Assembly (NCBI RefSeq): GCF_025127995.1
Contig: NZ_JAHLYP010000028.1
Location: 1 to 38,880 of the forward strand
Direction: 5' to 3'
Origin: Synechococcus sp. CS-1332
GTDB lineage: Bacteria > Cyanobacteriota > Cyanobacteriia > PCC-6307 > Cyanobiaceae
Length of the DNA stretch: 38,880 nucleotides
The notes beneath the pieces were generated by a model that made no database searches, had not been told where the DNA came from, and saw only the letters and a list, made by a program, of their open reading frames with translations. The position numbers were made by a program, and so were the translations under genes. Of this stretch, positions 19,336 to 27,464 are shown in pieces (position 1 is the stretch's first letter; each line of letters begins with the position of its first letter).

Positions 19336-19944
19336 ATGTCCGCAAGCAGCGCCGCCAACAGGTCCTCCGCCAAGCGGGACGCGCTGCTGGACACCGCCGA
19401 GGAACTCTTCACCCGGCAGGGCTATAGGGCCGTGGGCATCGACACGGTGCTGGCCCAGGCCGGGGTGGCCAAGATGACCCTCTACAAGCACTTCAAGTCG
19501 AAGGAGGAGCTGATCGCCGCTGTCCTTGAGCAGCGGGGCAGCGCCATTGCCGCGGCCCTGGCCGAGCGCATCGCCGCCGCGCCGGGGGGGCCCAGGCAGC
19601 GCCTCCTGGCCGTGTTCGACTGGCTGGCGGAAGCCGTTCGCTCGCCGGAGTTCCACGGTTGCCTGTTCATCAAGGCCGCCAGCGAGTACCCCGCGCCGGA
19701 GGATCTGCCGCGCCAGGCGGCAGAGGCCTTCAAGGACAGTTGCCGCCAGCTGCTGGAAGGGCTCTGCCGCGATCTCGCTGTTGCAGACCCCGAGGCTCTG
19801 GCCCGTCAGCTGCACCTGTTGCTCGAAGGCACGCTGGTGATGGCCTTCCTGCAGCGGAATCCCCAGGCCGCCAGCGATGCCCGCCGGGCCGCCGAGACCC
19901 TGCTGGCCGCCACGCTGAAGATCCCTCAAGAGCGCAGGCCATGA
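19336..19944 (+). CDS. TetR/AcrR-family transcriptional regulator
   Basis: A 202-residue regulator. The DNA-binding helix-turn-helix spans about residues 13-60 (LLDTAEELFTRQGYRAVGID, then AKMTLYKHFKSKEELI with the conserved TLYKHF turn). The remainder is the helical ligand-binding domain; the segment EFHGCLFIKAASE contains a cysteine that could sense electrophiles or oxidants, as in related regulators. Divergent from the GST gene, with two AGAC-N6-GTCT palindromes in the spacer, so I infer repression of GST-PNPOx and of itself. Its stop lies 10 bases before an ATG in the kdpA frame and 112 bases before the kdpA start I prefer; read-through into kdp is possible. Confidence 0.93.
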   Translation: MSASSAANRSSAKRDALLDTAEELFTRQGYRAVGIDTVLAQAGVAKMTLYKHFKSKEELIAAVLEQRGSAIAAALAERIAAAPGGPRQRLLAVFDWLAEAVRSPEFHGCLFIKAASEYPAPEDLPRQAAEAFKDSCRQLLEGLCRDLAVADPEALARQLHLLLEGTLVMAFLQRNPQAASDARRAAETLLAATLKIPQERRP

Positions 19945-20056
19945 ACAGCGGCTGATGACCGGCCCTGCCTGGGGCCTCCCTCTCCCCTGCCATTCGTCAG
20001 TTGCGGCAGCCCCCTCTCCGGCAGGACTGTGGGCGCGACTGCAGGACAGCCTTCCC

Positions 20057-21727
20057 ATGCTCCCCTGGTTCCTGGCCGCCCTCACCCTGACGGTGGCGGT
20101 GCTGACGGCCTTTCCCCTGGGCCGCCACCTCTGGCAGGTCTTTGACGATCGCCCGCAGCCCGCCTGGGACCCCTGGCTGCTGCCGCTGGAAACGGCGCTG
20201 TTGCGCTGGATCGGTGACCGTGGCCAGCCTGCGGCCAACGCTTGGGCCTATCTGCAGCCCCTGCTGGTCGCCAATGCCTGCTTCGGCGGCCTGGCCTACG
20301 TGCTGCTGGCCTTCCAACCCGCCTGGCTGAATCCCCTGGGATGGCCGGGTTTGCGCTGGGACCTGGCCCTGCACACCACCCTCTCCTTCCTCACCAACAC
20401 AGACCAGCAGCACCTCGTGCCCGAGCAGAGTCTGGGCAGCTTCGTGCAGCTGGGGGTGATCCAGTTCCTGATGTTCGTCTCGGCGGCCAGCGGCCTGGCC
20501 GTGGGTTTCGCGGTGATCCGGGGCCTGTGCGGCCTGCCCCTGGGCAACTTCCATCGCCAGCTGGTTCGCTCCCTCACCCGGGTGCTGATCCCCGGCAGCC
20601 TCCTGCTCGCCCTGCTGCTGCTGTTCTGCGGTGTGCCGATGACCCTGGCCGATCCCCTGCGGATCACCACCCTGGAGGGGGGCAGCCAACTGCTGATCCG
20701 TGGCCCGGTGGCCCTGTTCGAAGCGATCAAGCAACTGGGTGAGAACGGTGGCGGCTTCTACGGGGCCAACTCCGCCCACCCCTTCGAGAACCCCAACGGA
20801 CTGACCAACCTGGTGAGCACCTGGGCGATGGTCGCCATCCCGGCCGCCAGCATCGACGCCTTCGGGCGTTTTCTCGGCAACCGGCGCCAGAGCACCTTGT
20901 TGCTGCTGCTGGTCACGGCGCTGATCGCCGTGGGAGCCGCCGTCGCGATGGCGGCCGAGCAGGGGGGCAACCCGGCCCTGGCGGCCTGGCTCAGCGGCCC
21001 GAACCTGGAGGGCAAGGAGCTGCGCTTCGGTGCCGGGCTGACGGCGTTCTGGGCCGTTCTCAGCACCGGCTCGATGACGGGTGCCGTCAACGGCGCCATG
21101 GACTCGATGCTGCCGCTCTCCAACCTGGTGGCCCTGTTCAACCTGTTCCTGCAGGTGCTGTTCGGTGGCCAGGGCATCGGCATCGCCTACCTGCTGGTGT
21201 TCATGGTGCTGGCGGTGTTCCTCACCGGACTGATGGTGGGCCGGACCCCGGAGTTCCTCGGCCGCAAGGTGGAGAAGGCGGAGGTGGTGTGGAGCAGCCT
21301 GATCCTGCTGATCCATCCGGTGTTCGTGCTGCTGCCGGCAGCTCTCACCATGGCGGGAGCCACGGACCTGGCGGGGATCAGCAACCCCGGTCCCCACGGC
21401 ATCAGCCAGGTGGTGTACGAGTACGCCTCGGCGACGGCCAACAACGGCAGCGGCATGGAGGGCCTGGGCGACGGCAGCCTCTGGTGGAACCTCAGCGCCA
21501 GCCTCAGCCTGGTGGGTGGCCGCTACCTGCCGATCGCCGCCCTGGTGCTGCTGGCCGATGGCTATGCCCGCAAGCCGGCGCTGCCGCCGGGTCCCGGCAC
21601 CCTCGCCACCGACACCACCCTGTTCACGGGGGTGCTGGCCGTGGTGCTGCTGATCCTCGGCGCCCTCACCTTCTTCCCCGTGCTCGCCCTCGGTCCGATC
21701 GCCGACGCCTTGGTGCTGGCGGGCTGA
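20057..21727 (+). CDS. kdpA: Potassium-transporting ATPase subunit KdpA
   Basis: The channel-like, K+-selecting subunit of the KdpFABC pump in the cytoplasmic membrane. The 556 residues are almost all hydrophobic helices. The four selectivity-filter regions are recognisable: [44 protein letters not shown] and [13 protein letters not shown]. The ATG at 20057 (MLPWFLAAL) was chosen because it gives the usual family length; an in-frame ATG at 19955, only 10 bases after the TetR stop, would add 34 residues without family resemblance. First gene of the kdp operon. Confidence 0.96.
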
Positions 21728-21776: not shown

Positions 21777-23876
<2,100 letters not shown>

Positions 23877-23916
23877 GCTGCGGCTCGCCCCATCCCCTTT
23901 TCAGCCCCCCTTTCCG

Positions 23917-24105
23917 ATGGATCTGCTCAAGCGACCGCTGTTCTGGCTTCCCCTGCTGCTCGCCGCCGGCACGGTGCTGCTCGCCCCCCTGCAGCGGGGC
24001 CGGCTGGACAGCCTCCAGAGCCATGCCCTGGCCCTGCTGATCAGCGTCACCCTGGCCCTCTCGGCCTATCTGTTCACCGCCATGGTTCGCCCGGAGAAAT
24101 TCTGA
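23917..24105 (+). CDS. kdpF: KdpF/KdpG-like small membrane protein between kdpB and kdpC
   Basis: A 62-residue protein with two hydrophobic helices (about 8-21 and 34-53). The second half ends ALSAYLFTAMVRPEKF, a good match to the single helix and terminal R-P-E-K/R-F signature of KdpF, which stabilises the pump. The N-terminal helix is extra compared with the 29-residue E. coli KdpF. From memory, cyanobacterial kdp operons such as that of Anabaena carry an additional gene in this slot named kdpG; this gene occupies that place. Its stop overlaps the kdpC start (TGATG), so it is co-translated with kdpC. Confidence 0.75.
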   Translation: MDLLKRPLFWLPLLLAAGTVLLAPLQRGRLDSLQSHALALLISVTLALSAYLFTAMVRPEKF

Positions 24106-24677
24106 TGAACGCCCTCTCCCGACTCGGCCAGGGGCTGCGCCTCACCCTGGCGCTCTGGCTGCTCACCGTCGTGGTGATCACCCTGCCGATGCTGGGCCTG
24201 GCCCGCCTGGTCGCCCCCCAGCAGGCCGAGGGCAGCCTGGTGCGTGCCGGCGGCCGCGTGGTGGGCTCGTCCCTGGTCGGGCAGGCCTTCACGAGCGATC
24301 GCTACCTTCAGGGCCGACCCAGCGCCGTGGCCTACGGCAGCGGCGATCCGCCCAGCTCCGGCCCCAGCAACCTGGCCCCGGGCAACCCCGCTCTGGCCCG
24401 GCGGGTCGCGGCGGACGCCGCCGCCTGGGCCTCCCGGGGTGTGGCCAGGCCCGCAGCCGATCTGCTCACCAGCTCCGGTTCGGGCCTCGACCCCGACATC
24501 AGCCTTGAAGCCGCCAGGCAACAGTTGCCGCGGATCGCCGTGGCCCGCCAGTTGCCACCCGAGCGGCTGGAAGCCCTGCTGCAACGCCAGACCCATCGGC
24601 CGTTGCTGGGCCTGGCGAGGCCCCCGCTGGTGAATGTGCTGGCCTTCAATCTCGCCCTCGATCAGCTGGTTCCTTGA
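24105..24677 (+). CDS. kdpC: Potassium-transporting ATPase subunit KdpC
   Basis: A 190-residue single-span membrane protein, the accessory subunit that stabilises KdpA-KdpB and raises ATP affinity. One N-terminal helix (about residues 14-37), then SSLVGQAFTSDRYLQGRPSA, SNLAPGNPAL and the C-terminal VNVLAFNLALD, all conserved KdpC landmarks. The family's usual SNLGPTN is changed to SNLAPGN. Overlaps kdpF at its start and the kdpD-like gene at its end. Confidence 0.95.
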   Translation: MNALSRLGQGLRLTLALWLLTVVVITLPMLGLARLVAPQQAEGSLVRAGGRVVGSSLVGQAFTSDRYLQGRPSAVAYGSGDPPSSGPSNLAPGNPALARRVAADAAAWASRGVARPAADLLTSSGSGLDPDISLEAARQQLPRIAVARQLPPERLEALLQRQTHRPLLGLARPPLVNVLAFNLALDQLVP

Positions 24678-25768
24678 TCCGCTCCAGCCGCGGCCGCGGC
24701 CGCCACAAGGTGTTCATCGGCATGGCCCCCGGCGTGGGCAAGACCTGCCGCATGCTCCAGGAGGGACGGGAGCTGCTCAAGCAGGGCGTCGACGTGGTGA
24801 TCGGCTTGCTGGAAACCCACGGCCGGCAGGAAACCATCCGCCAGGCCGAGGGACTCGAGCAGGTGCCGCGGAAACAACTGCTGTATCAGGACGTGGCCCT
24901 GGAGGAGCTGGATGTGGCCGCCGTGCTGCAGCGACGGCCCCAGCTGGTGCTGGTGGACGAGCTGGCCCACACCAACATCCCGGGCAGCGAACGCCAGAAG
25001 CGCTGGCAGGACGTGGAGGCCCTGCTGCTTTCGGGCCTGGACGTGTACTCCACCCTCAACATCCAGCACCTGGAGAGCCTCAACGATCTGGTGGCCGGGC
25101 TCACTGGGGTGGTGGTGCGCGAGCGGATTCCCAACCGGGTGCTGGAGCAGGCCGATGAGGTGGTGCTGGTGGATGTCACCCCCGAGACCCTCCAGGAGCG
25201 CCTCAAGGAGGGGAAGGTCTATGCGCCGGAGAAAGTCGACCAGGCCCTGGCCAACTTTTTCCAGCGCCGCCACCTGGTGGCACTGCGGGAGCTGTCGCTG
25301 CGGGAGGTGGCCGACCGGGTGGAGGAGGAGGAGCCCACGGCCTCGGGCCTGCGGGAGCGGGTGATGGTGTGCCTGTCCACCTACCCGAGTGCGCTGCGGT
25401 TGCTGCGGCGGGCCGCCCGCCTGGCCAGCACCATGGATGCGCCGCTGCTGGCGCTGACCATCCAGGATCCCGGCCGGTTCCTCAGCAAGGAGGACAGCCT
25501 GATGCTCGAGGAATGCACCACCCTCTGCCAGGACGTGGGCGGCACGTTCATGCGCATCGAAAGCGCCGACGTTCTCGGCACCATCGCCCGGGTGGCCCGC
25601 GAGCGGCGCATCACCCAGATCGTGCTGGGTCAGAGCCTGCGCTCCCGCTGGCAGGCGCTGCTGCGCCGACCGATCTCGGAACGGCTGCAGCAACTGCTGC
25701 GGGGCCTCAACATCGATCTGCATCTGATCTCCGACAGCTCGCTGCCGGCAGGCACCGAGGATCGATGA
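24674..25768 (+). CDS. kdpD: Truncated KdpD: cytoplasmic sensor half only (KdpD domain plus Usp domain)
   Basis: A 364-residue protein starting at a TTG that overlaps the kdpC stop (TTGA). Residues about 11-215 are the KdpD N-terminal domain with Walker A GMAPGVGKT (16-24), the block LLETHGRQET, VLVDELAHTN, and STLNIQHLESLNDLV. Residues about 226-355 are the universal-stress-protein-like domain (VMVCLSTYPSALRLLRRAARLAS, ITQIVLGQS). The four-helix membrane part, GAF and histidine kinase of full-length KdpD (about 895 residues in E. coli) are absent. The stop overlaps the start of a separate histidine kinase gene (ATGA), which supplies the missing half. Truncated KdpD is known in cyanobacteria (Anabaena). 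Confidence 0.93.
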   Translation: MIRSSRGRGRHKVFIGMAPGVGKTCRMLQEGRELLKQGVDVVIGLLETHGRQETIRQAEGLEQVPRKQLLYQDVALEELDVAAVLQRRPQLVLVDELAHTNIPGSERQKRWQDVEALLLSGLDVYSTLNIQHLESLNDLVAGLTGVVVRERIPNRVLEQADEVVLVDVTPETLQERLKEGKVYAPEKVDQALANFFQRRHLVALRELSLREVADRVEEEEPTASGLRERVMVCLSTYPSALRLLRRAARLASTMDAPLLALTIQDPGRFLSKEDSLMLEECTTLCQDVGGTFMRIESADVLGTIARVARERRITQIVLGQSLRSRWQALLRRPISERLQQLLRGLNIDLHLISDSSLPAGTEDR

Positions 25769-26838
25769 CTTCGGGCGCCCCGGCGGGAGACAAGGTCCGG
25801 CTCACGCGGGTGGCCCGATCGCCGGGGCCCCTCTGGGCACTCACCGTCCTGATCCTGCTGCTGGAGCTGGCCTCCCCCCCGCGGGTCGTGTTCGGCTACC
25901 TCTACGTGATTCCGCTGGTGATCGGGGCGCCACACCGCAACCGGCCCCAGGCCCTGGGATTTCTGACGCTCTGCTGCTCGCTCACCCTGCTGAATCTGGT
26001 GGTGCCCCTGCGGGATCCCGACTGGATGGCCGTGCTGATCGATCGCCTGCTGGTGTGCATCGCCCTGACGCTGACCACCTTCCTCTGCCTGCACAACCGC
26101 CATCTGCTGCGCCAGCAAGTGGACCTGGAGGTCCAGCTGGCCCAGGCCGATCTGCGCAGGGATGTGATCGCCACCCTCGCCCACGACCTCAAGACCCCCG
26201 TGCTGGGCACGATCGCCACGGCTCGGATGCTGGCGCTGGAGGCCGATGCGACGGCGGGAAGCCTGCTGGAACGGGGCGTGGCGGCCATCCTGGCCAGCCA
26301 GGAGCGGAGCCTGCGGCTGATCGAGGATCTGCTGCGCCTGTTCCGGGCCGATCAGGAGGGACTGCAACTGCAACCGGAAGCCTGCGATCTGGGCCGCCTC
26401 GCCAACGAGGCGATCGCAGCGGTGGGGGCGATTGCCCGTGAGCGGTCGGTGACACTGATCCAGAGACAACCCACCGGATCGCAGCCCCTCACCTTGCCGG
26501 GGGATGCCAGCGGGCTGCGCCGGCTGCTGGAGAACCTGCTGCTCAACGCCATCAACCACAGCCTGCGGGGCGAGCGGGTCTGGATCGACCTGCAGCGGCT
26601 GCCGTCCCAGCTGGTGGTGACCGTGAGCGACCGGGGCCGGGGCTTCCCCGAAGCGAGCCTGCCCCACCTGTTCGAGCGCTTCTACCAGAGCGATCCAGAA
26701 CAACGGGGCAGCGGGCTCGGCCTCTACCTGTCCCGCCAGATCACAGAAGCCCACGGGGGCAGCATCCAGGCCCGCAACCTGCCCTCGGGGGGGGCCAGCC
26801 TGGAGGTGGTGTTGCCGCTGCCGGAGCACGGACCCTGA
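25765..26838 (+). CDS. Membrane histidine kinase encoded next to truncated KdpD
   Basis: A 357-residue sensor kinase. Residues about 22-108 contain three or four hydrophobic segments (for example LWALTVLILLLELA and LTLTTFLCLH); a short coiled linker leads to the H-box TLAHDLKTPV (His140), HisKA class. The ATPase domain has the N-box ENLLLNAINHS, G1 DRGRGF (289-294), F-box-like HLFERFYQSD and G2 GSGLGL (315-320). It has no PAS or GAF domain. ATG overlaps the stop of the kdpD-like gene and its own stop overlaps the response regulator start. Together with the KdpD half it reconstitutes the domain set of full KdpD in two polypeptides. Confidence 0.93.
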   Translation: MTSGAPAGDKVRLTRVARSPGPLWALTVLILLLELASPPRVVFGYLYVIPLVIGAPHRNRPQALGFLTLCCSLTLLNLVVPLRDPDWMAVLIDRLLVCIALTLTTFLCLHNRHLLRQQVDLEVQLAQADLRRDVIATLAHDLKTPVLGTIATARMLALEADATAGSLLERGVAAILASQERSLRLIEDLLRLFRADQEGLQLQPEACDLGRLANEAIAAVGAIARERSVTLIQRQPTGSQPLTLPGDASGLRRLLENLLLNAINHSLRGERVWIDLQRLPSQLVVTVSDRGRGFPEASLPHLFERFYQSDPEQRGSGLGLYLSRQITEAHGGSIQARNLPSGGASLEVVLPLPEHGP

Positions 26839-27464
26839 TGCGCGTGCTGATGATCGAGGACGACGAGGCCTTCCGGGTGGGGATCGAAGCGTTCCTGCTG
26901 CGCCTGCCGGCAGTCACCGCCGTCCGGGCCGTGAGTGACGGGGAGCAGGGGCTGGAGGCCCTCGCGGCCGCCAGCGCCGACGTCGTGATCCTCGACATCG
27001 GCCTGCCCGGCCTGGGGGGCCTGGAGACCTGCCGGCGGATCAGCGACGACCACAACCTGCCGGTGCTGATCCTCACCAGCCAGGAGGACGGCTGCTGGGT
27101 TCAGCGGCTCTGGGATGCCGGAGCCAGCGGCTACCTGCACAAGGCCGAGGCCCTGACGCGGCTGGAGACAGCCCTGGCCAGCCTGGAGCAGGGAGCCAGC
27201 TGGTGGGACCGCTCCGCCACCCGGGCCCTCCGCACCCGCGAGACCCCGGCGGACAGCACTTCCGCTGAGACGTCCCTGGCCCTGCTGACCCCACGGGAGC
27301 GGCAGGTGCTGGCTGCCATGGCCGGCGGGCTCACCAACCGAGAGATCGCCACCAGCCTCGGCCTGGGCACCGGCACGGTGAGGGTCTATCTGCACACCAT
27401 CTTTCAGAAGCTGCAGGTGAGCAACCGCACCCAGGCGGTGCTCAAGTTTCTTCAGCCGGGCTGA
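26838..27464 (+). CDS. NarL/FixJ-type response regulator at the end of the kdp operon
   Basis: A 208-residue response regulator. The receiver has acidic pocket D8-D9 (IEDDEA), phospho-acceptor Asp53 in ILDIGLPG, the Thr of LILTSQ and Lys of YLHKAEA. The C-terminal LuxR/GerE helix-turn-helix begins LLTPRERQVLAAMAGGLTNREIATSLGL and ends with VRVYLHTIFQKL. The classical KdpE is OmpR-class with a winged helix; this one is not. ATG overlaps the kinase stop. I infer it regulates kdp transcription in response to the split KdpD-kinase pair, but there is no direct sequence evidence for its target. Confidence 0.94.
   Translation: MRVLMIEDDEAFRVGIEAFLLRLPAVTAVRAVSDGEQGLEALAAASADVVILDIGLPGLGGLETCRRISDDHNLPVLILTSQEDGCWVQRLWDAGASGYLHKAEALTRLETALASLEQGASWWDRSATRALRTRETPADSTSAETSLALLTPRERQVLAAMAGGLTNREIATSLGLGTGTVRVYLHTIFQKLQVSNRTQAVLKFLQPG

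Follow-up and report, generated by a model that had tools for sequence, protein, structure and literature searches.

The stretch of DNA analysed here (the window) comprises 38,880 nucleotides of Synechococcus sp. CS-1332 and is one contig of a draft genome (G000) of 57 contigs and 2.97 Mb. It contains a kdp operon, which ends with three regulatory genes: a short KdpD, a membrane histidine kinase of the HisKA class and a response regulator of the NarL/LuxR type (Table 1). An earlier reading made from the letters alone (the sequence-only reading) had placed this trio at the operon end, which is confirmed by the reading frames and Pfam matches. The module is real, conserved and mostly known in kind from other cyanobacteria and Deinococcus. 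Our additions are the downstream layout, in which the kinase-regulator pair of one Cyanobiaceae clade lies inside the kdp operon behind kdpD, a dyad upstream of kdpA, and evidence against the kinase simply being the missing half of KdpD. No paper on this layout or on the kdpA dyad was found in the open-licence PubMed Central (PMC) literature.

From kdpC to the regulator, the genes are head-to-tail overlapping frames. The short KdpD frame opens with TTG and shares a TTGA overlap with the kdpC stop. As already noticed in the sequence-only reading, the ATG of the kinase overlaps the kdpD stop (ATGA), and the regulator start overlaps the kinase stop by one base (TGATG). In all eight same-layout relatives examined, two of which (L054 and L235) look like one and the same contig, a possible kdpD start shares 4 nt with the kdpC stop, and a possible kinase start shares 1 or 4 nt with the stop of kdpD. 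Because these coupled starts recur, the kdpD and kinase frames are genes and not chance frames. The kdpA start was set at 20057 rather than at the longer frame from 19955. Scanning for promoter and terminator consensus sequences gave no matches.

Table 1. Features of the kdp locus, in window coordinates
Feature	Position	Strand	Basis or remark
Candidate operator, dyad CTGCC-N4-GTCAG with TTGCG tail	19987..20005	+	de novo motif; starts 70 bp before kdpA start
kdpA	20057..21727	+	PF03814, E 4.9e-193; alignments of relatives begin about 20057
kdpB	21777..23876	+	P-type ATPase domains
kdpF-like small membrane gene	23857..24105	+	PF09604, E 5.7e-7; start uncertain
kdpC	24105..24677	+	PF02669, E 2.3e-56
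Short KdpD, 364 residues, KdpD and universal stress protein (Usp) domains	24674..25768	+	PF02702, E 1.1e-95; PF00582 (Usp), E 2.6e-5
Codon of Cys25 in short KdpD	24746-24748		
Membrane HisKA histidine kinase, 357 residues, four predicted helices	25765..26838	+	HisKA and HATPase over Pfam cut-off
NarL/LuxR-type response regulator, 208 residues	26838..27464	+	Response_reg and GerE over Pfam cut-off

Distribution and layouts among relatives

The sample consisted of 151 genomes of the family Cyanobiaceae and 290 genomes of the class; kinase orthologs were defined by E <= 1e-40, presence and absence were scored from per-genome tables, and positions were taken from match lists of capped length. A KdpD over the family cut-off was found in 15 of the 151 family genomes and in 134 of the 290 class genomes, and a kinase ortholog in 122 of the latter. 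Both proteins occurred in 113 class genomes, KdpD only in 21, the kinase only in nine and neither in 147 (Fisher p 9e-47, a statistic that ignores kinship). Rather than being found mostly away from kdp in relatives, the kinase has kdpA or kdpD as a neighbour within 10 kb in 102 of the 122 genomes that carry it. KdpA and/or KdpD are present in 118 of these genomes and neither in four. These observations support the assignment of the three genes to kdp.

The nearest whole genome found, G090, belongs to the same genus, and its kinase and regulator are 81% and 85% identical to those of the window. Among the named relatives, Vulcanococcus limneticus LL has the window layout and a KdpD that is 81% identical. 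The gene order of the window thus recurs, as the sequence-only reading had suggested looking for, but it is not the prevailing one. In 140 fetched neighbourhoods, which leave aside partial KdpD matches (such as G187, G209, G286, G307, G362 and G398), the kinase is divergent upstream of kdpA in 60 and directly downstream of kdpD in five. It is divergent from kdpD without kdpA between them in six and placed otherwise in eight; in a further 60, several of which are short contigs, the stretch lacks a kinase, and one has no KdpD match. A regulator ortholog adjoins 67 of 80 kinases in the fetched neighbourhoods. Among 80 named loci, three (L234, L235 and L236) show the window layout; no sensor kinase-response regulator (SK-RR) pair was seen at L230, which is situated at the beginning of its record.

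The sequence-only reading had taken the short KdpD and the kinase for two parts of a split KdpD that together form a K+ sensor. Its premise that the trio is linked to kdp stands, whereas the two proteins are also found apart. KdpA accompanies both of them in 112 of the 290 genomes, KdpD without a kinase ortholog in 18, and the kinase without KdpD in five (G241, G265, G367, G380 and G386). In G265, kinase and kdpA are neighbours and KdpD is unmatched; as this genome is a single contig, the lack of KdpD is unlikely to be an assembly gap. Conversely, the one-contig genomes G178 and G208 have KdpD and KdpA but no kinase match at the threshold used. Because the kinase and the short KdpD occur apart, an obligate two-protein sensor does not fit, while two separate regulatory arms do. 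A short KdpD that binds the membrane kinase, both acting jointly like the halves of full-length KdpD, would agree with the strong co-occurrence and with a gene order that mirrors the KdpD domain order across overlapping stops and starts, and the N-terminal domain of E. coli KdpD is reported to matter for signalling (PMC2714519). Nonetheless, we regard this arrangement as unlikely, because the units separate even in one-contig genomes, 66 of the 79 kinase-bearing neighbourhoods fetched were assigned a divergent orientation of kinase and kdpD, the membrane domain of the kinase is not clearly that of KdpD, and in other species the N-domain of KdpD is itself an enzyme that phosphorylates a KdpB serine (PMC11018627).

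Kinship of the short KdpD, the kinase and the regulator

In the window KdpD, only the KdpD and Usp domains exceed the Pfam cut-offs. The NCBIfam model NF038185 (KdpD-like non-kinase) did not reach its cut-off (391.6 bits versus 550), although the match spans residues 7-355. Kept catalytic residues are G16 and G22-K23-T24 of the Walker A motif G-x5-GKT, D95-E96 of Walker B and the adenine arginine R176. A 2024 report shows that the N-domain of KdpD acts as an atypical serine kinase (ASK), which phosphorylates S162 of KdpB and thereby inhibits the pump; according to the same report, short forms of KdpD are the prevailing ones in Cyanobacteriota, Deinococcota and Bacteroidota, and a separate two-component system controls kdp in D. 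radiodurans, Anabaena and Alicyclobacillus (PMC11018627). The TGES-loop serine that corresponds to E. coli S162 is residue 181 of the window KdpB (nt 22317), and it is found in 165 of 166 aligned KdpBs, the remaining one having a gap. Domain architecture, Walker A, Walker B and adenine arginine are shared with the D. geothermalis protein DgKdpD, which itself lay outside our alignment, and the target serine of a DgKdpD-type kinase is present in the window KdpB. By these residues, the window short KdpD is probably an atypical serine kinase of KdpB.

Among the matches listed, most full-length matches to the KdpD domain are held by frames of about 360-490 residues, and the only full-length KdpD is that of G213 (893 residues, with DUF4118 and GAF). 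Eight loci of families f13 and f32 of the class (L168, L175, L177, L178, L179, L181, L182 and L189) encode tandem double KdpD-Usp units in single frames of 725-935 residues; in seven of these frames both copies have Walker A G-x5-GKT, and a double serine kinase would be odd. A Parabacteroides plasmid (L227:4965-7815) carries kdpABC, a 373-residue short KdpD annotated as hypothetical and then an unrelated HAMP-PAS histidine kinase. Short KdpDs therefore keep different partners in different phyla.

The N-terminal part of the window kinase has no Pfam match over cut-off. Its structure model (mean predicted local distance difference test score 82) has helices at residues 21-36, 44-57, 60-76 and 87-163, the fourth hydrophobic helix running on into the helix of the dimerization and histidine phosphotransfer (DHp) domain. 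This agrees with the absence of a GAF domain noted in the sequence-only reading; none exceeded the Pfam cut-off. The phosphorylatable residues are invariant, H140 in 37 of 37 aligned kinases and D53 in 18 of 18 aligned regulators. A fold search with the kinase model returned kinase proteins among the best 50 matches, which do not settle the identity of the membrane domain.

Profile comparisons do not bear out the earlier description of this protein as the kinase half of KdpD. The profile of its membrane-domain family matches the Deinococcota kdp sensor (hhalign probability 97.9%, E 3.5e-13) but not the DUF4118 region of KdpD (0.2-1.8%), whereas in the positive control KdpDs of three groups from different phyla found each other at 88-99%. 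In a tree of 53 kinase cores, 25 cyanobacterial and five Deinococcota kinases form one clade (support 99/96), and seven KdpD kinases form a separate one (99/96). Some weak hints point to a possible remote kinship with KdpD. A profile of basal kinases scored 0.1-19.9% against four KdpD profiles, the highest value being reached against one of them; one basal kinase among 21 orthologs gave a sub-threshold Pfam match to DUF4118 (E 1.6e-4, 21.9 bits versus a cut-off of 28.4); a phmmer alignment with the full L. plantarum KdpD spans the membrane region; and a topology that joins the kinase, the Deinococcota SK and the KdpD kinases was not rejected in the approximately unbiased test (p-AU 0.356). True fission of an ancestral full-length KdpD, with the kinase as its C-terminal half minus GAF, draws on these four hints. 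It appears improbable in view of the best tree, of membrane domains that otherwise remain unmatched while the control works, and of a regulator that is NarL-type and not an OmpR-type KdpE.

The DNA-binding domain of the regulator is GerE, not of the OmpR type found in KdpE. A HisKA-class kinase next to a NarL-class regulator, which had been thought uncommon, is the rule in this family, and in five of five Deinococcota pairs compared the regulator is likewise NarL-type and matches the window-type regulator over its full length. Other HisKA-NarL pairs exist, such as Hik2-Rre1, and the pairing was dropped as a curiosity.

The closest known system is that of D. radiodurans, where a short KdpD also follows kdpC (kdpBAC-kdpD-N, with SK DR_B0082 and RR DR_B0081) and where the regulator is reported to bind the kdp promoter, its loss abolishing kdp expression under K+ limitation (PMC5716572). 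The SK has a homologous membrane domain and kinase core, and its RR is NarL-type as in the window. However, the D. radiodurans pair is divergent from kdp, while the window pair lies downstream within the operon, and the SK, of 515 residues, carries an additional segment separating its membrane part from its kinase part, which the shorter window kinase lacks. In Synechocystis, Hik20 (Sll1590) and Rre19 (Sll1592) are called KdpD and KdpE homologs, Rre19 being NarL-type (PMC7090099), and kdpD, sll1590 and sll1592 are reported to increase jointly in one mutant exposed to ammonium (PMC10094980). The likeness of Hik20-Rre19 to the window pair is one of description. E. coli KdpD/KdpE shares the KdpD and Usp domains and the HisKA/HATPase core with the window proteins, but there the sensor is a single chain that includes DUF4118 and GAF, and the regulator is OmpR-type. 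Alicyclobacillus acidocaldarius is said, going by the title of a 2006 study by Schleussinger, to have a split sensor-kinase gene in divergent kdp operons.

A candidate operator upstream of kdpA

In 12 of 13 Cyanobiaceae kdpA upstream regions, a de novo motif search run without a supplied position revealed a dyad between -64 and -77. Its sequence is CTRCC-N4-NNYAG, followed by a tail resembling TTGCG. The information content of the dyad is 19.4 bits versus at most 12.3 in 12 shuffled sets, and for five lineage representatives 17.8 bits versus at most 14.8 in 30 shuffled sets. The exception among the 13 is G032 (L061), a genome without any kinase match. When two whole genomes were searched with the 20-mer at up to three mismatches, the only perfect match preceded kdpA; G000 had one extra place with three mismatches, and its reversed control gave one place. 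The dyad in Table 1 is thus a candidate site of the NarL-type regulator. A gene for a TetR-family regulator (19336-19944) ends about 40 bp upstream of it.

These results also bear on whether the kinase-regulator pair might serve other genes and stand near kdp by chance. In favour of a bystander, 20 of the 122 kinases have neither kdpA nor kdpD within 10 kb, and several of these kinases are on separate contigs of a draft assembly. In 29 genomes, a distance of over 20 kb or a contig boundary separates KdpD from the kinase, and of 20 kinase neighbourhoods fetched from this group, nine have kdpA beside the kinase and 11 are without any kdp gene. We nevertheless hold such a role to be very improbable, given the kdp linkage of the other 102 kinases, the single perfect dyad match before kdpA in each of the two genomes searched and the knock-out of the D. 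radiodurans relative (PMC5716572).

Among 128 non-redundant upstream regions of the class, 10 contain the dyad with 0-1 mismatches, against 2.25 expected; of the nine that were listed, all but L164 are Cyanobiaceae, and in L053 and L057 the best such match differs from the site at -64 or -74. A common operator across all cyanobacteria was not found in these 128 regions. The region before kdpA in many cyanobacteria of other orders (such as L102, L083, L137 and L156) contains CTAAAC-N5-CTAAAC, a direct repeat, as well as the element TAAAC-N7-TATACCT, both with and without the kinase next to kdpA. The repeat occurs in 12 of 34 regions without and in 16 of 81 with an adjoining kinase. As it is no rarer without the kinase, it was not assigned to the NarL-type regulator, and another regulator or promoter element may lie behind these sequences.

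Two probable regulatory arms

We consider it reasonably probable that the pump is served by two regulators that act as separate arms, one switching it off after translation and the other switching its genes on at the level of transcription. The short KdpD would be a soluble serine kinase that binds ATP through its Walker motifs. When K+ is plentiful, it would phosphorylate the TGES serine of KdpB and so stop the pump, and its Usp domain would take the input, perhaps cyclic di-AMP (c-di-AMP). The membrane kinase and the NarL-type regulator would make up a two-component system of their own. The four-helix domain of the kinase would sense low K+ or a linked signal and pass it through the fourth helix to the DHp helix; H140 would be phosphorylated, the phosphate would be transferred to D53 of the regulator, and the regulator would bind the dyad some 70 bp upstream of kdpA and turn on the whole operon. 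With its position behind kdpD within the operon of this Cyanobiaceae clade, the pair would be under positive autoregulation. Observed are the gene structure, the conservation, the kdp linkage, the kinship with the Deinococcota SK-RR pair, most of the catalytic residues and the upstream dyad; from these we infer every biochemical step, co-transcription, the signal and the role of the dyad as regulator site.

Several observations weigh against two arms of this kind, and one of them concerns the adenine pocket. At the position of the adenine-clamp aromatic residue (W39 in E. coli, tyrosine in D. radiodurans), the window KdpD has Cys25, and this replacement may alter its serine-kinase activity. 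Across 211 aligned KdpDs, in which some organisms are counted twice, the position is occupied by tyrosine in 168, phenylalanine in 25 and cysteine in 12. All 12 cysteine carriers fall into one Cyanobiaceae group (support 94/92), which takes in every downstream-layout relative found, together with G032, G022 and G074, in which no kinase ortholog was found; G022 and G074 are incomplete genomes. The Cyanobiaceae kdp loci thus fall into two groups, one with Cys25 and a downstream pair or none, the other with phenylalanine or tyrosine and a divergent pair (e.g. L236 and L237).

Other observations concern the proposed input, c-di-AMP. The c-di-AMP motif of Firmicutes, (A/G/C)XSXSX2N(Y/F), was absent from all 137 KdpDs scanned, including that of L127, which we take to be the S. 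elongatus protein. This motif was described in PMC8214093; S. elongatus KdpD is reported to bind c-di-AMP in lysate (PMC5897029), and the short D. geothermalis KdpD to be stimulated by it (PMC11018627). In addition, no diadenylate cyclase (PF02457) was detected in the draft genome G000. Since 288 of 290 class genomes have this enzyme, the one-contig relative G090 among them, its absence from G000 is probably an assembly gap and was not used as an argument. Control of the window KdpD by c-di-AMP was set aside for want of the Firmicutes motif.

The dyad and the distribution data call for similar caution. Fewer restarts were used for the shuffled sets than for the real sequences, the dyad sequences share an ancestry that shuffling ignores, and once the dyad was masked, the next-best motif still reached 14.1 bits. 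The kinase-less G032, which had no site at -70 in the motif search, retains a two-mismatch dyad at -77, and a different element precedes kdpA outside the Cyanobiaceae. The kinase search scored only seven candidates in most genomes, which makes a missing kinase less certain than it may seem, and the strong co-occurrence of KdpD and kinase could also be explained by functional contact. Finally, the one-contig genome G234 (L139), in which no kinase matched, keeps a 60-bit regulator fragment divergent from kdpA. This fragment is a frame of 119 residues that covers only the C-terminal half, lies divergently between two kdpA copies and is perhaps what is left of a decayed pair.

Fusion of an ASK with a histidine kinase (HK) has been proposed as the origin of E. 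coli-type KdpD (PMC11018627). It is a tentative and rather unlikely scenario that one Cyanobiaceae clade stands before such a fusion on a second, independent route: a membrane kinase not clearly derived from KdpD would have left a divergent unit and settled immediately behind the short KdpD, where the frames overlap and follow the domain order of full-length KdpD, while the Cys25 pocket was changing in the same clade.

Two separate arms suggest that in cyanobacteria the off-switch of the pump (the serine kinase) and its on-switch (the two-component system) are separate genes, which can be independently gained, lost and moved. With such separate switch genes, it becomes possible to test the 2024 proposal of a fusion of two such chains as the origin of full-length KdpD (PMC11018627). 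The picture of the kinase as the missing half of KdpD is weakened, and a concrete candidate operator can be offered for a cyanobacterial kdp regulator. In several of the named records examined, the system is hidden behind labels such as universal stress protein or HAMP domain-containing sensor histidine kinase.

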